Shown here: positions 5,424 to 32,258 of the stretch, one piece after another
Position numbering within the stretch: the stretch's first letter is position 1
Layout of the letters: the number at the start of each line of letters is the position of its first letter
IMG/VR virus record: IMGVR_UViG_3300031886_000019
Location: 1-33,286 of that record
Origin: a virus
Length of the DNA: 33,286 nucleotides
Reading direction: 5' to 3' (one strand)
The notes under the pieces: model-generated
Told to the model about the DNA's origin: nothing
The model's database searches: none
Seen by the model: the letters and a program-made list of their open reading frames with translations, nothing else
Made by a program: the position numbers and the translations under genes

Positions 5424-5446
5424 AGGGGGGATTAAGTTCCCCCCTT
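5424..5446 (+). terminator. strong hairpin after the capsid genes, possible terminator or attenuator
   Basis: A perfect 8-bp stem AGGGGGGA / TCCCCCCT (5424-5431 with 5438-5445) encloses a 6-nt loop TTAAGT. The bases after it (TCTACTATAAA) are only moderately U-rich, so this may be a partial terminator that reduces transcription past the capsid genes, or an mRNA-stabilising 3' hairpin. Confidence 0.6.
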
Positions 5447-5467
5447 CTACTATAAAGGAAGTGGAAA

Positions 5468-5938
5468 ATGTCAGGTGGAGTATCTTATGGGCACAATTTA
5501 CAAAATTCTATGCCCTATATGGACAACTTAACTTTAGTATCGTCTGCTGCACGAACTGCTAGTGATACAACAACTGTGAAAGGACTTGCTCCATATACGA
5601 GTGCTTATTTCATGCTTGATGTTACAGCCGCAGCCACAGAAGCAGGTGACAAACTTGCTGTATTTATTCAGCGAGAGATGCCTAATGGTGACTGGATGGA
5701 TATTATATCCTTCACAGAAGTCTTAGGTAACGGGGGTGCAAAGAAGTATCGTGCTGATGTATATCCCGGAGCTACAGGCGGTGAAACGTCTGGAACAATT
5801 AATGATGGGGCGCTGACGGCTGGTTCAGTTGCTGACCTTGCATGGGGTGATGCACTCCGATTCAAGTGGACAGTGACAGATGCTAGTACAGATAACGCTT
5901 CATTTACTTTTTCAGTAACAGGAACATTTAGAGTATAA
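5468..5938 (+). CDS. virion structural protein of unknown function
   Basis: This 156-residue beta-rich protein is built of Ala/Thr/Ser/Gly/Asp strands and ends in SFTFSVTGTFRV, like the beta-sandwich subunits in phage heads and necks. I do not recognise it. It has no membrane segment. It begins after the hairpin with AAGGAAGTGG upstream and ends in TAATG, overlapping the next start by one base, so the two are translationally coupled. A virion role is inferred from its place in the structural operon. Confidence 0.65.
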   Translation: MSGGVSYGHNLQNSMPYMDNLTLVSSAARTASDTTTVKGLAPYTSAYFMLDVTAAATEAGDKLAVFIQREMPNGDWMDIISFTEVLGNGGAKKYRADVYPGATGGETSGTINDGALTAGSVADLAWGDALRFKWTVTDASTDNASFTFSVTGTFRV

Positions 5939-17169: not shown

Positions 17170-19149
17170 CTATATTGCACAAGCGTCACCATCACAGTAC
17201 AGGTCAGCTTGTTTATCGCCATCACCAATAACAGATAGTGCCAGTGGTTGTAGGTTTTGTTTCTTAGCGTTGTATACCTCTTCGGTAATGCCTTCATAGG
17301 GAGCTTGTTGGTATGTACCACTAGGACTGAGGGGTAGGAACGCTATATCCTTTACCTTATCCTTACTCCAGTTAATCATATCGGCCAGTTGTTCTGGTCC
17401 GTATTCTTCTTTATCAAACTTAACAGTAGCACTTACGGCGTTGTCTGCCCAGAATCTAGCTACGTCAGCTATCAACCCTAGGTGTTCCATAGGCTCTACG
17501 TCTGATTCAGAACGCACACCTACACCTGCATCTACAGGGAACTCAACCACTACAGAGTTAGTAGGGTCAATGGCAGCAGGTTCTACATGATATCCTGCCG
17601 ATTGTAATCTATCTACAAGAGGGCTATTGTCAGCTAGTGTGACACGTCTAATATGGAATCGTCCTTCGACATTGTAATGTATCCCGGGGGTTACACCGGC
17701 TACTAGAGACACCGTACCACTAGGCTTTACTGAGGTCCTACGGACGCTGGTGGGTACGTTGAACCACTGTGAGTATATTCTGTCATAGTCACCACTCCAA
17801 TGGTAGCCATGGTCCATCCAATCCTTAAGTACTTCTCTACCATGTTCCCCCACAAATTGTGTGATACCTGTAAGTGATAGGCCAATACGTCGATTATCCC
17901 CCATGATTTCTCTAGAGGTTTCATCTTCTATATTGTTTGAGGCAAGGGTAACAGTCTTACCATATAGGTAGGCGAACTTGATAACTCTTCTGAACTCTTC
18001 CTTACTCTTAATATGAGGTAAGTAGATTTCAACGAGCGTACACATTTCTTTGTGTCCTAAAGGCTGCTCACCACATGGGTTAAAGCCTATCGCATGTTCA
18101 TCTGTTGTATCTATTATACCATTCATTCGACCATAGTTGTGTACATTATCTAACCAAGCAAATCCCGGCTCACCATTGTGCCATGTGCGCTCAGCTAATC
18201 TGCTAACGTCCGACTCAGGTGTTATGAACACACTGTTATTAGATGCCCAACCATAATCAATACGCTCAGGGTACTTGTTGTAATCCTTGAGGTCGATAAA
18301 GGTCTCATCGTCTTCTTGACCAAAGGCTATTTCAGCAGAGCGTCGAACATTACCTGCTATAACACAGCGTCCAATCATGTTTGCTAAGTCTACTATCTCT
18401 CTAGTACCTAGTTTTCTGCCAGAACATTTATCAAGCACTGCTCGAATAGATATGTGTAGCTGCCTAAGAGGGTCAGGTCCACTAGCAATCCCACCAAATC
18501 CATTGATAGGTTCCCCCTTTGCACGTATCTTACTGTAATCAAATTCAATTGTAGCCATACGTTCTGGTACGATATACGAATTAATTAATAACTCAACTGA
18601 TTTAACCCATCCCTCTCTTGTATCAGGTATCTCTATAACAGCTACAGGCTTTGAAGGTTTGATTACTTTTATAATATCTTTACCATCTGTATCAAAACCA
18701 ACACCTACCCCTAGCATACTCATGTGCATTATCCAAGAGAAGAATGAACCTTTTTCTTTATGGAGATACTTAGAAGAGATGAACGCACAGTTCTGTAGAC
18801 ACTCAGATACGCCTCTGTTCATTACAAAGTCAGTACCCATCATCCATAAGCCACGCCCGGGAGGTGACCACTTCATCCTAAACATTAAATCAAACGCTTC
18901 TTGTGCTGAACGCTGTGCTTTATCAGAGTTCCATGACTGAGAGGGCATATGATCTTGTTGTACTTGGTACATACCATTGATAACACGCTCACATACATCG
19001 TGCCATTTCTCCATACCATTTGTTTTAGGGTTATCAGAACGTGAATATGTCCTAAAAAAGACTACTTCACCTAGTCCACTCCACCCAAAATCAGGTTGTA
19101 ATTCTTTATATGTGTCTAAAAATGTTTGATTTAGGACAAAGGTAGCCAT
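17170..19149 (-). CDS. nrdJ: adenosylcobalamin-dependent (class II) ribonucleoside-triphosphate reductase
   Basis: Reduces ribonucleotides to deoxyribonucleotides with a B12 radical, without oxygen dependence. The 659-residue protein resembles the monomeric RTPR type (Lactobacillus leichmannii, 739 residues). Key features are C121 in LQNCAFIS (redox cysteine), GVGVGFDTDG, NVRRSAEIAFG, the N-P-C-G-E motif at 357-361 with thiyl C359, the VKPSGTVSLVAGVTPGIHY phosphate loop, and a C-terminal C-D-G-D-A-C pair (C652, C657) for re-reduction. AGGAGG lies 5 nt before the ATG. A promoter with a large dyad lies upstream. It indicates a host that makes or imports cobalamin. Confidence 0.93.
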   Translation of the reverse strand: MATFVLNQTFLDTYKELQPDFGWSGLGEVVFFRTYSRSDNPKTNGMEKWHDVCERVINGMYQVQQDHMPSQSWNSDKAQRSAQEAFDLMFRMKWSPPGRGLWMMGTDFVMNRGVSECLQNCAFISSKYLHKEKGSFFSWIMHMSMLGVGVGFDTDGKDIIKVIKPSKPVAVIEIPDTREGWVKSVELLINSYIVPERMATIEFDYSKIRAKGEPINGFGGIASGPDPLRQLHISIRAVLDKCSGRKLGTREIVDLANMIGRCVIAGNVRRSAEIAFGQEDDETFIDLKDYNKYPERIDYGWASNNSVFITPESDVSRLAERTWHNGEPGFAWLDNVHNYGRMNGIIDTTDEHAIGFNPCGEQPLGHKEMCTLVEIYLPHIKSKEEFRRVIKFAYLYGKTVTLASNNIEDETSREIMGDNRRIGLSLTGITQFVGEHGREVLKDWMDHGYHWSGDYDRIYSQWFNVPTSVRRTSVKPSGTVSLVAGVTPGIHYNVEGRFHIRRVTLADNSPLVDRLQSAGYHVEPAAIDPTNSVVVEFPVDAGVGVRSESDVEPMEHLGLIADVARFWADNAVSATVKFDKEEYGPEQLADMINWSKDKVKDIAFLPLSPSGTYQQAPYEGITEEVYNAKKQNLQPLALSVIGDGDKQADLYCDGDACAI

Positions 19150-19265: not shown

Positions 19266-19667
19266 TTAGTAGAATTTACTCAACGCTTTTTCATGTACGG
19301 ACATAAAACTTTCTAAGTAGAGGTTAGTTACTTCACTTACACATTTTTCTATTACATTAATAGCTTCATTACGTCGTGATGACGGGGTTTGTTCAATGAT
19401 CCAATCATGTATATCTGCCATACGTACATGGAATAGCTCATGTATTATTGTTCTAGTGTACCGTTCTCTATCTGTAACTAGGCTTGGTTTAATAATGATA
19501 GTAGCGTCACGGTAGTGGGGTATCCAGGAAGTAGTAGCTTCTATTCTCTTGTCTCTCTCTTGCTTGGTAGGTAGCACCACACTGATAGACCACTGAGGTT
19601 CTAGTCCCATTGCATCTGCAATATAGTCTGTAAGGTCTTGAAACTTTTTCCAATCTTCTTTACTAAT
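19266..19667 (-). CDS. SprT/IrrE-like zinc metallopeptidase domain protein, probable AUU start
   Basis: A protein of 133 residues if read from AUU at 19667. It carries TRTIIHELFHVRM, an HExxH zinc site, and helices after it, like small SprT or IrrE-type peptidase domains in phages. Substrate unknown. The first ATG (19610) has no Shine-Dalgarno, and the 19 codons before it encode a convincing N-terminus beginning SKEDWKKFQDLTDYIADA. No ATG, GTG or TTG occurs in that stretch. ATT at 19667 comes 3 nt after the TAG of the preceding gene, suggesting coupled initiation at a rare start. With ATG 19610 the protein would be 114 residues. Confidence 0.75.
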   Translation of the reverse strand: MSKEDWKKFQDLTDYIADAMGLEPQWSISVVLPTKQERDKRIEATTSWIPHYRDATIIIKPSLVTDRERYTRTIIHELFHVRMADIHDWIIEQTPSSRRNEAINVIEKCVSEVTNLYLESFMSVHEKALSKFY

Positions 19668-19669
19668 TT

Positions 19670-20242
19670 CTAGTTTATCAAGTCTTGCAGATTCAGTTGG
19701 TTTGGACCCTCTGGAGGATCTCCATAAAACTTGGTTGTCGATATTAAAAATTGTATATCTCCTTCGATATTAAATACTGGTTCATTGTCTAAGTATAATT
19801 CTGTAAGCCCACCTCTTTTAAGTACCTCAACCTTTTGTTCAAATAGAGCTTGAAGTTCTATTAGATCACTTGCCGGTTCCATAGGGTGACAGTTACCTAA
19901 GTCTTGATTAGGACTAAATGCAATCATATACTTATAATCATTTTTAGTTGCGTAATCGTGTATTCTAGCATATGTAGCTGATACGTGCATCATAAGATGG
20001 GGAGTTTCTGCAAGAGTTTTAAGTAGAAATAACATAAAAGGTTCTATTTCTACAGCTTCGATAGAAAAATCAACCTCTCCTGATTCTACAAATACAATAG
20101 AGATTATCCCATCATGGGGTTCGATATCATTTGCTATCTGTACATTAAGTAGGGGTGGATGGTTGTATGTTTCCTTCGACCCGTCCTTCCACATGAAGGA
20201 GGAACTGGGAAGGAAGTCGTCTCTTGTTATTTTCTTTACCAT
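19670..20242 (-). CDS. hypothetical protein in the recombination/reductase operon
   Basis: A 190-residue acidic, soluble protein with no cysteine pair or nucleotide motif I can recognise. It has a mixed alpha/beta composition, with a hydrophobic IEPFMLFLLKTL helix near residue 70 and an N-Q-D-L-G-N-C-H-P stretch in the second half. Its first 33 codons overlap the end of the preceding gene in another frame (98 bp). The ATG has no Shine-Dalgarno, only an A-rich tract, so initiation is probably coupled. The frame is intact and protein-like throughout. Confidence 0.65.
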   Translation of the reverse strand: MVKKITRDDFLPSSSFMWKDGSKETYNHPPLLNVQIANDIEPHDGIISIVFVESGEVDFSIEAVEIEPFMLFLLKTLAETPHLMMHVSATYARIHDYATKNDYKYMIAFSPNQDLGNCHPMEPASDLIELQALFEQKVEVLKRGGLTELYLDNEPVFNIEGDIQFLISTTKFYGDPPEGPNQLNLQDLIN

Positions 20243-20486
20243 TTTTTAATAAGTAATTATATACATGAGTCTTAATTACCTCTCCTATCTTATCATCATT
20301 AAGTACATCTTTCTGATCAAGCAAGGCTGTATTTATTGTAGGGCTTTCAAACCCATCAACAAGTAATGACCTTGGTACTTTGATAAGACTGTCTGGTAGT
20401 TTGGATAGTGATTCATACATAGAATCTGTTGGATCAATTACCCATCTTTGTTCTGTTTCGTCTTCTACTATTAATTGAGATACCAT
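20145..20486 (-). CDS. hypothetical protein overlapping its downstream neighbour by 98 bp
   Basis: A 113-residue protein whose N-terminal two thirds (VSQLIVEDETEQRWVIDPTD, then LPDSLIKVPRSLLVDGF) are clearly protein-like and cover 244 bp not used by any other gene. The last third overlaps the next gene in another frame and is basic and low in order, so a shorter functional core is possible. The start overlaps the end of the ERCC4-type nuclease by 16 bp. No family recognised. Confidence 0.6.
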   Translation of the reverse strand: MVSQLIVEDETEQRWVIDPTDSMYESLSKLPDSLIKVPRSLLVDGFESPTINTALLDQKDVLNDDKIGEVIKTHVYNYLLKNGKENNKRRLPSQFLLHVEGRVEGNIQPSTPT

Positions 20487-21172
20487 AATATTTCTTCTGC
20501 CGTCTTTTCTCCCACGCCTTTAACTGCCATGAGTTTTCCTTTATCGGAATTCGCTAACTTCTTTATACTACCAAACTCAGTGAGAAGTTGTTGAGCCATC
20601 TTAGGACCTACCCCTCTCATACCCATAAGAACTGTCCACTTAGATTGTGATCTAGGGGGAACAGCAAACGGCTTTGGAGACAAGGCCAAAGTATTATGCT
20701 CACTTCTACTTTCATACTTATACAAACTTAGTAGATGAAAGGGGAGGTACCAATCACTAGGATTGTACTCTACTCTAATTGCATGTGACTGTATCGTTCT
20801 GAGCTTAGATACAAACGCATCCGGTGAGTGTTGTAGATTAATCTTCTTAGTCTTAATCTTACCACCCTTCATCCACTGATAGTAACCATCCATCAACAAC
20901 ACTACTACGTCAGCATCCGTGTCAAGACAGCCATTCAATTGACGGGCTATCTTACTACCGGGATCTCTCATAGTAGGATTCGTTGAAGAGATGAAGTCTG
21001 TAGGAGTTTTTCTTTCTATTAGTACGGTACGAGATGTACCATCATCCTGAGTTATATCCATGCGATAGTCACCATAGTCTAGTTTTTCAACTGAGACAGG
21101 AATCTTAGAAGCCTTGAAAGCTTCTTGAACAAGTTGTATAGATCCCTGTTCTCGTGAGTCTATGGTTAGCAT
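20471..21172 (-). CDS. ERCC4/XPF-type structure-specific nuclease with HhH domain
   Basis: This 233-residue protein has the ERCC4 nuclease signature: TIDSREQ (D5, R7, E8), DYGDYRM (D35), LIERKTPTDF (E53-R54-K55, D59) and a following helix with a RQLNGCL segment. The C-terminal part (about 185-233) is a tandem helix-hairpin-helix: GMRGVGPKMAQQLL and AVKGVGEKTAEEIL. XPF/Mus81 relatives cut branched DNA such as flaps and forks. The phage version is a single-chain nuclease plus HhH2. It starts 3 nt after the ATPase stop, with no Shine-Dalgarno, so it is coupled. It likely resolves recombination or replication intermediates with the Sak4-like ATPase and the Cas4-like nuclease. Confidence 0.88.
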   Translation of the reverse strand: MLTIDSREQGSIQLVQEAFKASKIPVSVEKLDYGDYRMDITQDDGTSRTVLIERKTPTDFISSTNPTMRDPGSKIARQLNGCLDTDADVVVLLMDGYYQWMKGGKIKTKKINLQHSPDAFVSKLRTIQSHAIRVEYNPSDWYLPFHLLSLYKYESRSEHNTLALSPKPFAVPPRSQSKWTVLMGMRGVGPKMAQQLLTEFGSIKKLANSDKGKLMAVKGVGEKTAEEILWYLN

Positions 21173-21175
21173 TGA

Positions 21176-21964
21176 CTATGCGGGTAGTATAACTCGCCCT
21201 CCGTTTTCTTTCTCTGTTTCACAAGCATCGACGTATGTATTCCATAGGCCGTTCTCTATATCAAACTTAGTCCAAAGACTTGATTTATTATTACCAAGGT
21301 ATGGACGTACCTTATCTTTCATTGTGGCTATCTGGTAACTAACCGGAGCCATCTTAAGATTGAGTGCGAACACAGTATCAAAGCGTTGAGTATTACGTTT
21401 CTCACCGCCGGGTTTAAAGCCAGCCTGTTGCCACATAGCTGTAGTTTCTTGCACTGTTATATCTTTATCTTGACCGACACCTTCTATGCTTACAGGGTGT
21501 GCCCATGCTGTAGCTGCTACATGAAATGGTGCACGACCAGTAGCTACATCTAAGAAATCTTTGTTGTGCTTAGTCTTACACCAACCCCACTTGTCAATCC
21601 CGGGTGCTGAGGTGCCAAGGCGTAGTTCTTCTACTCTATTAGAGAGTGTAATACCATTGACCTTCATCTCATAATCAGCCTGTACTAAGTCCCAAGCTTT
21701 ATCTAACCCATCAATCATGAGCCAGTCACCGGCCTTAAGTACTTGCTTTGCTTTGTTAAACGAGTCAGCTAACTGATCCCAATTCAAACAACCCTCTACC
21801 TCTATCTCAAGGTCAGGGAACAAACCATCTAACAGTTTGCCAAGTTTATTTTCTAGGTCAATCATGAAGACCTTAGAACCGGGATGCTTATCTGCTATAT
21901 CTAACAGAGATGAGGATTTACCAGAGCTATCTGGACCTACTATTAATATTGTTTCTTTATACAT
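21176..21964 (-). CDS. Sak4-like RecA-family P-loop ATPase
   Basis: This 262-residue protein has a Walker A at the very N-terminus, VGPDSSGKSS (about 9-18), a VFMIDLENK strand, and a Walker B WLMIDGLDKAW (about 81-91). Short, Walker-A-first RecA-core proteins of this type are the phage Sak4 recombinases, which anneal or exchange ssDNA with help from an SSB. A putative ssDNA-binding protein lies just upstream in the operon (22993). No recA-type C-terminal domain is present. It overlaps the end of the Cas4-like gene by 8 bp. A DNA-repair role is likely; strand-exchange ability is inferred. Confidence 0.8.
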   Translation of the reverse strand: MYKETILIVGPDSSGKSSSLLDIADKHPGSKVFMIDLENKLGKLLDGLFPDLEIEVEGCLNWDQLADSFNKAKQVLKAGDWLMIDGLDKAWDLVQADYEMKVNGITLSNRVEELRLGTSAPGIDKWGWCKTKHNKDFLDVATGRAPFHVAATAWAHPVSIEGVGQDKDITVQETTAMWQQAGFKPGGEKRNTQRFDTVFALNLKMAPVSYQIATMKDKVRPYLGNNKSSLWTKFDIENGLWNTYVDACETEKENGGRVILPA

Positions 21965-22751
21965 AACTCAAACTTTCTACATTGACGGACACATTAGGTA
22001 ATGCATCACAGGGTAAGGAGCAGTTAGTACACCACCATCCAGGGGTAGGTGGAGTAATATCAGCTTCTAGAGAACGGATCACTGGTGGAATCATATCATT
22101 TAATAACCAATCAGTATGCCTCCTATCTCTAGTTGTGCTGCCCCACTCAATACGTGGAGCCTTTGTTTTTAAATATATAAACTGTACGAAGTGGACGTTT
22201 ACTTTATCCCATCCGCTTAGTGCAGCATACACAGTAGCCTGTAAATCTTGTTCAAGCCACCTAGTATTCATTGGACTGGTCTTAGTCTTCCAGTCTATTA
22301 TTGTATTAGGTTCCCCTATGTAGTCGATGTATCCATGCAGTGTGTACTTATCATCAATCGGATGTTCAATATGTTTCTCAGTTGCAATTGGATTAGTAAG
22401 GTAGGGGAACAGTTCATCGTACATGATTGGTACGAGAGAGACAGAATCTTCCATAGACTTTTCTATAAAATCATTCTGCCATGTACAACTATCTAATACG
22501 TTAGTACCATTCTCATCAAAGCCATTGTTCCATAGGTTTTCCATGTGTTCAATAGCAGTATGCGTATCAGGCCATTCACCTGATTCGATTTGTATATTGA
22601 TAATGTCTTCCATGAATTTGTGAACGATAGTTCCACGCACAGTATACTGTGTAGCTTCTCTCTCAAGTATTAGATTAGATAGCTTCTCTCGCTTAAATCT
22701 TTCCGGACACTCAGAGAATAATGATAACCCACTGTAAGATAATGTTGTCAT
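21957..22751 (-). CDS. Cas4/RecB-like PD-(D/E)xK exonuclease, possible Fe-S cluster
   Basis: This 264-residue nuclease starts LSYSGLSLFSECPERF (C15), then RGTIVHKFME (H44), LHGYIDYIG (D143), IIDWKTK (D153, K155), QATVYA (Q171, Y175) and a C-terminal WWCTNCSLPC (C241, C244, C248). H, D, DxK and QxxxY are the RecB/Cas4 catalytic set, and one N-terminal plus three C-terminal cysteines match the Fe-S arrangement of Cas4 and AddB. Such phage enzymes resect DNA ends for recombination. No Cas1/Cas2 or CRISPR is present. There is no Shine-Dalgarno before the ATG; a long structured leader ends 9 nt upstream instead, so translation may be controlled by that RNA. Confidence 0.85.
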   Translation of the reverse strand: MTTLSYSGLSLFSECPERFKREKLSNLILEREATQYTVRGTIVHKFMEDIINIQIESGEWPDTHTAIEHMENLWNNGFDENGTNVLDSCTWQNDFIEKSMEDSVSLVPIMYDELFPYLTNPIATEKHIEHPIDDKYTLHGYIDYIGEPNTIIDWKTKTSPMNTRWLEQDLQATVYAALSGWDKVNVHFVQFIYLKTKAPRIEWGSTTRDRRHTDWLLNDMIPPVIRSLEADITPPTPGWWCTNCSLPCDALPNVSVNVESLSYV

Positions 22752-22927
22752 AAATTTTTAATTGGTAGGCTCTTTAGAAATTACCAAGGATATGATTGCT
22801 CACATAAGGACTTATTCAGCGAGTTCCCCCTTCGCGTCACCTTAAACTTTGTCTCATATGATTGGGTATCATGTAAGTATGAGAGTTAGTAATCCTTGAT
22901 AATCTCTAAAGAGGCTACCAATCCTAT
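22752..22927 (-). ncRNA. candidate structured leader RNA with a 31-bp closing stem
   Basis: Read leftward, a 31-nt arm (22922-22892) pairs with another (22791-22761): 28 Watson-Crick pairs, two G-U wobbles and one C-C mismatch. Both wobbles pair only in the leftward transcript, which favours RNA function on this strand. The 100-nt interior has two more hairpins: UCUCAUA/UAUGAGA (22884-22878 with 22858-22852) enclosing UGAU/AUCA with a 6-nt bulge, and UAAGG/CCUUA (22844-22840 with 22809-22805) enclosing GCGA/UCGC around a purine-rich loop AGGGGGAAC. The RNA would start about 5 nt before the closing stem and end 9 nt before the nuclease ATG. It matches no riboswitch or ribozyme core I know. Confidence 0.65.
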
Positions 22928-22933
22928 ACATAT

Positions 22934-22962
22934 ATTGTAACACATATGCTGTAGATTGGCAA
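22934..22962 (-). promoter_or_regulatory. sigma70 promoter for the structured leader and recombination genes
   Basis: On the - strand TTGCCA (22962-22957), a 17-bp spacer and TACAAT (22939-22934) make a good sigma70 promoter. The start is expected near 22927, right before the long stem. It gives the nuclease, ATPase and ERCC4 genes their own transcript, separate from the helicase/SSB transcript upstream. Confidence 0.7.
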
Positions 22963-22992
22963 CCCCTTTGTCAGAGGAGTTTTACTAGTTAC

Positions 22993-23541
22993 CTAGTAAG
23001 CTGCAGATACCTGCTGCTTGGATGCAAGAGCTTCGTCTTGAACAATAGCTACGCCACGCTCAAGGTCAAAGTCCTCAACATCACCTACTGTTGCCAGTAT
23101 ATCATACTTGCGCTCAGTTCGTCCACGGAATTCCTCCGTGAAAGAAGCGACCACAACAACCTTACCAACAAGATCGGAACTGCCGGGGTTCGGTAGTCCA
23201 GCGTCTGAACACTGTCGGGTTAGCCGACCAAGATCAGTCTTAGCATGCATAGATGGAGACTTACCGGACTCCAGAGCTTCTGCTTGTGCTCGACTGATGT
23301 TGATGAATAAGTCACGAGAACCTGCAGACGTTTCAGGATGTATCTGCTTGATTGTCCATTTTAATTCCACTTTAGGGAATGAACGCTCTTCGCCAGTTTC
23401 CTTGTCGTTGTAGGTAATCGTTCGTTTCTGAAACACAGGTTCCCCTGCAATTTCAGCTAAGATGACCGTTCGGTCAGAGACGTTGTTTGCGTCAAGAAGA
23501 TCTTCACCCAATTCCAACACCTCAATTTCTTCAGTTGCCAT
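22993..23541 (-). CDS. putative single-stranded DNA-binding protein
   Basis: A 182-residue acidic protein. Its central part (about 25-160) alternates beta-strands and short helices: EPVFQKRTITYND, VELKWTIKQIHPETS, then DLVGKVVVVASFTEEFRGR and ERKYDILATVG. The 'GKxVxVxxFxExFRGRxxxKYD' strand pair fits an OB-fold ssDNA-binding protein. It lies between the helicase and the Cas4/Sak4/ERCC4 genes, the place where phage SSBs are found with Sak4-type recombinases. It lacks the long disordered Gly-rich tail of bacterial SSB. AAGGAAA lies about 12 nt before the ATG. Function is inferred from fold impression and context. Confidence 0.55.
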   Translation of the reverse strand: MATEEIEVLELGEDLLDANNVSDRTVILAEIAGEPVFQKRTITYNDKETGEERSFPKVELKWTIKQIHPETSAGSRDLFINISRAQAEALESGKSPSMHAKTDLGRLTRQCSDAGLPNPGSSDLVGKVVVVASFTEEFRGRTERKYDILATVGDVEDFDLERGVAIVQDEALASKQQVSAAY

Positions 23542-25143: not shown

Positions 25144-25509
25144 TTATTGTTCCTCCTCCTCTTCATTCATAAGTTCATAAACAAACTCATTTGGATTTAG
25201 TATTGATCGTATAATTCTTTTGAGTTCTTTTTCATCTACTTTTAATATGTTTCCAAGACACTCAGTAATCATGTCCATAAAATGATCTGGTAAATCCATC
25301 TCTTTTGTATCATCAAATACTCTTAATAATAAAGGATGATCAGATGATGAGAAAAACACATGCTGAGTGTTCCCTTCATTATCTTCTTGAACCCTTACAA
25401 AGAGTTCAATCGCCATTAATCTAACTGCACATTTAATAAGTGTACCCTTGTCAAGAGCTTCAAACTTATCCTGTGCAACGCTTTCTATCTCTTCAAGAAT
25501 ATTACTCAA
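25144..25509 (-). CDS. acidic hypothetical protein upstream of the helicase
   Basis: A 121-residue helical, acidic protein ending in a Glu-rich tail (NEEEEEQ). I do not recognise it. The start is TTG at 25509, supported by AGGAG 8 nt upstream and by the TTGA overlap with the DUF932 stop. The Glu codons at the end (GAGGAGGAGGAA) double as the Shine-Dalgarno of the helicase. It shares the helicase's frame, separated only by one TAA, so it could be a helicase partner or, by readthrough, an N-terminal domain. Confidence 0.65.
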   Translation of the reverse strand: MSNILEEIESVAQDKFEALDKGTLIKCAVRLMAIELFVRVQEDNEGNTQHVFFSSSDHPLLLRVFDDTKEMDLPDHFMDMITECLGNILKVDEKELKRIIRSILNPNEFVYELMNEEEEEQ

Positions 25510-31810: not shown

Positions 31811-32258
31811 ATATATCTATCTCCTGTTCTTTCTGTATCTCATCTACCCAATTAAGCATGTCTCTAACAGCCCAAAAGGTTTCACTTGGTTCTTCATATC
31901 TATTTTCTAATAGCTGTAGCTGGTATTTAATATCTTCAACCTTACTCCTCACCAATCCATCTTGTAGTTCTAAGTAACATCTATCACACCCTGTCTGATA
32001 AGCGCAGAGTTCAATGTTGTTTGCTATCTTTACATACTGTCCACATATAGCACATGTAAGACAGTCACTATCTTCTAGCGTAGTACTATGCTCTACATAT
32101 GTAAAGTAATCAGGGTCAATCACTAGATTCTTAGTACCACTAGCCCAGTTAAAACAACCCTGACATAACCACGGGTAGTCTGAGTAAGCATCAGGGGGAA
32201 GACGCTCTTGATGAGGCCAGTACACTCGACCCTCTGTTCTTTTATATAATAGTGCCAT
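31803..32258 (-). CDS. multi-cysteine zinc-binding protein
   Basis: A 151-residue protein with several C-x2-C pairs: WLCQGCFNW, DCLTCAICGQY and GCDRCYLELQ. They form probably two zinc modules in the first 110 residues, followed by a helical C-terminus. Position in the chain of small overlapping genes suggests an early accessory protein. The number of cysteines makes metal binding likely. The partner is unknown. Confidence 0.65.
   Translation of the reverse strand: MALLYKRTEGRVYWPHQERLPPDAYSDYPWLCQGCFNWASGTKNLVIDPDYFTYVEHSTTLEDSDCLTCAICGQYVKIANNIELCAYQTGCDRCYLELQDGLVRSKVEDIKYQLQLLENRYEEPSETFWAVRDMLNWVDEIQKEQEIDIYV

Follow-up and report, generated by a model that had tools for sequence, protein, structure and literature searches.

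Comparison of related phage contigs indicates that the gap in front of an exonuclease gene for DNA repair or replication in an uncultivated tailed phage holds a genuine structured RNA that is under selection and belongs to no known family. The element combines strand-specific selection with a position in a compact replication and recombination operon. It is a candidate for a new family within a familiar category, that of structured leaders or small RNAs of phages. Beyond the cultured model systems, structured phage RNAs have been little explored. The reading that we favour, with a little less than even confidence, is that of a leader RNA module of the nuclease operon, in which a long closing stem (P1) serves as insulator and RNase III-type clamp around a docked two-hairpin core that is probably protein-binding.

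Source of the sequence and related phages

The window, which is the whole stretch of 33,286 bases analysed here, is a 33-kb fragment of a genome of ~60 kb; its first ORF is open at the 5′ end, and homologous contigs in IMG/VR measure 60.6 and 60.8 kb. The phage belongs to a rare group of bacterial viruses and is probably marine, judging from the relatives of its terminase and from the metagenome sources. The terminase and capsid proteins have only distant cultured relatives, with identities of at most ~33%. The structural genes are oriented rightward and the replication genes leftward. The RNA is flanked by the following genes:

22993–23541, − strand: upstream gene, 182-aa protein, predicted OB-fold-like (SSB-like)
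21957–22751, − strand: downstream gene, PD-(D/E)XK exonuclease (PF12705, E = 4e-19; PHROG exonuclease)
21176–21964, − strand: next gene, AAA_24/Sak4-like ATPase, overlapping the nuclease stop codon
20471–21172, − strand: next gene, ERCC4-type nuclease with HhH

The 182-aa protein has no Pfam or PHROG match. Its structure was predicted with a pLDDT of 72, and the Foldseek matches to RPA and other SSBs are weak, with a best E-value of 2.7e-3.

Relatives were sought with the nuclease, helicase, AAA_24 ATPase and DNA polymerase, and with two RNA patterns (core and P2), and the searches converged on the same seven IMG/VR contigs. The RNA element is located at the identical place in all seven related contigs that span the locus. 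Clade 1 comprises the window and four close contigs, the nucleases of which are 95–99% identical. Clade 2 comprises three distant contigs with nucleases 75–77% identical (about 76% between the clades) and RNAs identical to each other. Each of the four homologous records searched whole contains a single copy of the RNA, which was not found in L036, a 6-kb fragment matched by the ATPase search. The polymerase search also gave a distant polymerase (L043). Among the pattern matches, L009 (core, IMG/VR) arose by chance within coding sequence of an unrelated phage, and L056–L059 (P2) are chance matches in unrelated phages. The core pattern matched nothing in 85,462 bacterial and archaeal GTDB genomes, nor did an AAA_24 protein search of GTDB genomes; cultured phages gave short chance matches or none, and no plasmid matched the RNA.

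The preliminary description, made from the window alone, had left the RNA unassigned, and the Rfam search agrees with this. The covariance models of Rfam 15 gave no matches over the window at gathering, and at E ≤ 10 the best match was a plant miRNA with 14.4 of 65 bits. No self-cleaving ribozyme or self-splicing intron was matched in Rfam, even at E ≤ 10.

Closing stem P1

The RNA is delimited by two arms and a short spacer:

22892–22922, − strand: 5′ arm of P1, 30 of 31 positions paired in every sequence
22761–22791, − strand: 3′ arm of P1, pairing with 22922–22892
22752–22760, − strand: 9-nt spacer from P1 to the ATG, without a Shine-Dalgarno sequence

As first described, the arms pair at 30 of 31 positions, with 28 Watson-Crick pairs, two G-U pairs and one C.C mismatch, and the stem ends 9 nt before the nuclease ATG at 22751. 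P1 encloses ~100 nt, and no other inverted repeat of 20 bp or more within 400 nt occurs anywhere in the window. The leftward RNA folds with an energy of −59.2 kcal/mol, compared with −36.7 ± 4.3 kcal/mol for shuffled sequences (z = −5.26; none of 200 shuffles as good), and the rightward (+) strand reaches a z of −4.24. The surrounding gap of 241 nt (22752–22992) is the longest between the genes as annotated here; its earlier characterization as the longest non-coding stretch of an otherwise gapless genome is too strong, since the window is a 33-kb fragment of a genome of ~60 kb.

Selection on the leftward RNA

Eleven of the 31 P1 pairs vary, and 30 pairs form in every sequence despite 14 substitutions between the clades. 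There are three compensatory double changes (A-U to G-C, G-C to A-U and A-U to G-C), which, with two clades only, come from essentially one deep comparison. The six one-sided changes are all exchanges between Watson-Crick and G-U pairs in the leftward RNA. At pair 9 a mismatch (C.C or C.U) is replaced by C-G in clade 2, and pair 10 changes from C-G to C.A, so that every sequence has exactly one mismatch at this point. When the 14 substitutions were reshuffled over the arms, 25.8 pairs formed on average, and the probability of 30 or more was 0.002. When the partner was slid by one to three columns, pairing across the entire structure fell from 98% to no more than 44%. Unpaired positions account for 6 of the 186 P1 cells in the leftward RNA, as against 22 in the rightward RNA. 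In these alignments, the signal of selection on P1 is clearly strand-specific. Two wobbles specific to the leftward strand had suggested selection on that RNA from the start; both are present, and the double changes, the G-U exchanges and the 6 versus 22 unpaired cells argue in the same direction. The related loci carry both the arms and the compensatory changes, the absence of which had been named at the outset as grounds for refuting the RNA.

Long inverted repeats at the ends of a short non-coding core could also be the remnant of a mobile element with MITE-like termini, or another repeat acting at the DNA level. However, the element occurs as a single copy in the records checked and at the same site in both clades, its sequence has no clear target duplication, and the compensatory changes in the arms preserve RNA pairing, which makes this origin of the repeats extremely improbable. 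An origin of replication, at which the transcript would prime DNA synthesis or the hairpin would act as single-stranded DNA, has slightly more in its favour and is nevertheless improbable. The element lies within the replication and recombination cluster, and no primase or replicative DnaB-type helicase was recognised by Pfam among the sampled proteins of the homologous clade-2 genome (L053–L055), nor was an RNA polymerase among the proteins scanned. Yet the one-sided changes keep the G-U pairs of the leftward strand, which fits an RNA better than DNA, where G-T pairs are weaker, there is no change of GC skew at 22.8 kb, and no initiator-binding repeats were seen.

Inner core

Within P1, two hairpins and their complementary segments were delineated:

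22852–22884, − strand: P2 hairpin, UCUCAU/AUGAGA with inner AUGAU/AUCAU, a 6-nt bulge ACUUAC and a C-rich loop; stem invariant
22874–22878, − strand: P2 bulge segment ACUUA, complementary to UAAGU at 22814–22810; candidate contact, invariant and without covariation support
22863–22867, − strand: P2 loop segment ACCCA, complementary to GGGG of the P3 loop; CCCCA in L002 and UCCCCA in clade 2
22805–22844, − strand: P3 hairpin, UAAGG/CCUUA and GCGA/UCGC, with internal loop UGAC/UGAAUAAGU and loop AGGGGGAAC (22831–22823); invariant in eight contigs

The inner core of ~85 nt is almost invariant, with variation restricted to the first loop, the junctions and the edges beside P1, and the eight contigs, including the window, show no difference over the 42 nt of the P3 region. 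The local identity is 93% over 22900–22801, compared with 66–87% per 100 nt in the nuclease gene. However, stretches of 94–97% also occur in coding regions, and since the SSB-like gene contains an 85-nt stretch with 84 identical positions, the invariance of the core alone is not proof.

Because the core hardly varies, it displays no covariation in P2, P3 or the docking contacts, and we treat its fold as a hypothesis. The two inner hairpins of the preliminary description stand in part: the lowest-energy fold of the clade-2 core includes P2, but in the isolated clade-1 core lower-energy folds other than the combination of P2 and P3 prevail. An alternative helix, CAUAUGAGAC/GUCCUUAUGUG, is the best in most of clade 1, is broken by an A-C mismatch in clade 2, and was rejected.

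The complementarities between the P2 bulge and the P3 internal loop (ACUUA/UAAGU) and between the two terminal loops (CCC(C)/GGGG) are collinear and are separated by 5 and 4 bp, which would allow a possible side-by-side docking of P2 and P3. Compared with shuffled loops, the three sequence types give joint probabilities of 0.009, 0.004 and 0.002 for the double contact, in a test devised after the sequence had been seen.

Two other uses of the sequence were discarded. Clade 2 has an open frame, MIPQSYETTFKVTRRGNSLNKSLRA, the ATG frame of which is removed in clade 1 by a one-nucleotide difference in the loop, which leaves no conserved coding. Shared complementary 9–12-mers, such as 12 nt inside the gene at 5468–5938, are about as frequent as expected by chance for antisense targets.

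Promoter and predicted 5′ end

Two features precede P1 on the leftward strand:

22934–22962, − strand: sigma-70-type promoter TTGCCA-17-TACAAT with TG before the −10 box; place and hexamers kept in clade 2
22923–22929, − strand: predicted transcription start and 5′ single-stranded tail, placed from the position of the −10 box

The promoter had been recognised in the preliminary description and is present at 22962–22934. The string alone means little, since similar strings are common by chance: the window contains 44 promoter-like strings, and 48.5 are expected. In clade 2, however, a promoter occupies the identical place, its −10 box is a perfect TATAAT, and the promoter-to-P1 spacing is conserved between the clades. 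This conservation supports the proposal that the RNA starts at its own promoter, with P1 beginning within about 7 nt of it.

A short inverted repeat, AACTCCTC..AGGGGTT (22957–22985, − strand), lies in the interval from the stop codon of the SSB-like gene to the −35 box, and a corresponding repeat exists in clade 2. It may act as an operator or weakly end a transcript.

Translation start of the nuclease operon

The nuclease gene had been described as lacking a Shine-Dalgarno sequence. The site is indeed weak (−2.1 kcal/mol), but this is common to the next five genes, and the spacer of clade 2 differs and contains AGGA. The six consecutive genes at 19266–22751 (− strand), which encode the nuclease, the Sak4-like ATPase, the ERCC4-type nuclease and three small proteins, have weak or no Shine-Dalgarno sequences (−2.8 to +1.0 kcal/mol), compared with −5 to −13 kcal/mol for most genes around them. 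With the leader folded, opening the start region costs 3.8 and 3.3 kcal/mol, which puts it on a par with the more accessible genes in the window (median 5.5). Because this region is open and 30 bp lie between the core and the start, the core is no obvious lock on translation.

For the same reasons, a riboswitch that operates by exchange of P1 is unlikely. A riboswitch-like element was one of the possibilities raised initially, and a metabolite riboswitch would fit a 5′ leader with a compact, nearly invariant core of two hairpins that may be docked. Purine-type riboswitches also have a three-way junction with a closing stem, two parallel hairpins and loop-loop complementarity (kissing loops). 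In contrast to them, the element described here has no ligand-core sequence and no expression platform, and its P1 has 30 bp, which could not plausibly be exchanged. Neither a terminator or antiterminator nor a sequestered ribosome site is present, Rfam gave no match, and the core pattern was not found in the 85,462 bacterial and archaeal genomes, where riboswitches normally occur. We consider this type of control very improbable.

A leader that acts purely in cis is almost as probable as the processed module that we favour. It would stay on the mRNA and control how stable the message of the nuclease-Sak4-ERCC4 operon is or how it is translated, for instance as a stabilising stem at the 5′ terminus or as an operator to which a phage replication protein binds. 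P1 starts a few nucleotides from the predicted 5′ end and stops 9 nt short of the ATG, and the weak Shine-Dalgarno sites together with the closely packed or overlapping genes suggest that the operon may depend on initiation at the nuclease. The operator of T4 gp32 (SSB) is likewise a structured leader among phage replication and recombination genes, with a UUAAA-type sequence at the start site (PMC535899), and clade 1 has UUAAA at this position in AAUUAAAAAUUUAUG. However, the T4 operator is a pseudoknot of ~28 nt that adjoins the ssb start site itself (PMC535899), whereas here a 30-bp stem intervenes and a nuclease is downstream; with the SSB-like gene upstream of the RNA, the element is no ssb operator. 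The stem also places the core far from an open ribosome site, the clade-2 spacer has AGGA and no UUAAA, and a simple stabiliser would need no invariant core.

Proposed processing of the leader and comparison with known RNAs

In the favoured reading, a host-type promoter of its own would drive leftward transcription of an RNA of ~165–175 nt, with which the nuclease-operon transcript would begin. The 30-bp P1 would insulate the core, enabling it to fold independently of its neighbours, and would act as a putative processing clamp for a double-strand-specific enzyme of the RNase III type. Cleavage would free the core from the mRNA, which would then begin just before the nuclease ATG. P2 and P3 would lie adjacent to each other, docked through ACUUA/UAAGU and CCC(C)/GGGG, and the core may be a binding platform whose partner evolves slowly and is most likely a phage replication or recombination protein or a host protein. 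We prefer this reading because an extended stem that closes an invariant core at a predicted 5′ end, with no terminator, most resembles a processing clamp. No leftward terminator was found after P1, and a free RNA would therefore depend on the putative processing.

RNase III processing stems surround pre-rRNAs. Like these stems in pre-16S and pre-23S rRNA and the sites in T7 early mRNA such as R1.1, P1 is a duplex with one internal mismatch, positioned between genes of a polycistronic phage transcript. It differs from them in enclosing an almost invariant, structured core of ~100 nt at a predicted 5′ end, and its cleavage is putative. A duplex of ~20 bp or more in a transcript is expected of an RNase III processing element; P1 has 30 pairs over 31 positions in both clades, in a transcript that is itself predicted. 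T7 R1.1 demonstrates that a phage stem can serve as an RNase III processing site (PMC8708148). Of the three functions suggested initially, a processed leader is the best.

The remaining suggestion, a 6S-like decoy, is not supported by the models. The element resembles 6S RNA (RF00013) in its long closing stem and stand-alone size, but it lacks a central bubble in one continuous hairpin, has a multibranch core instead, and gave no Rfam 6S match. The pRNA of phi29, another phage RNA of ~170 nt, likewise has a closing stem, and its two hairpins carry loops that are complementary. Unlike pRNA, the element is located in a replication cluster between an SSB-like gene and a nuclease and has no Rfam match. 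Along the contig of the clade-2 genome, more than 35 kb separate the terminase from the RNA, and the element is next to neither the packaging genes nor a genome end.

A bolder version of the processed module, to which we assign a rather low probability, is a new class of trans-acting phage RNAs. Here a core of ~100 nt with hairpins docked at two points would be cut from a replication and recombination leader through the 30-bp clamp and would bind a conserved host or phage protein. The element bears on the question of whether structured RNAs are set free from the leaders of phage operons, and on what their binding partners would be.

Additional features of the phage genomes

The clade-2 genome contains, at 31833–43109 (− strand; L054/L055), a giant 3758-aa ORF, adjoining one of 1007 aa, for which Pfam and solved structures gave no match and PHROG no convincing one. 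A virion RNA polymerase was considered for the giant ORF and dropped, as no match was found. The first ORF of the window appears to form the end of the equivalent region. A class II (B12-dependent-type) ribonucleotide reductase of 659 aa is encoded at 17170–19149 (− strand). The small gene at 25144–25509 (− strand) has ~50–58% DNA identity between the clades, compared with 80–95% for its neighbours, and is either fast-evolving or replaced. A strong conserved hairpin, GGGGGGATTAAGTTCCCCCC, is located at 5425–5447 (+ strand) in the gap before the gene at 5468 and is nearly identical in both clades.
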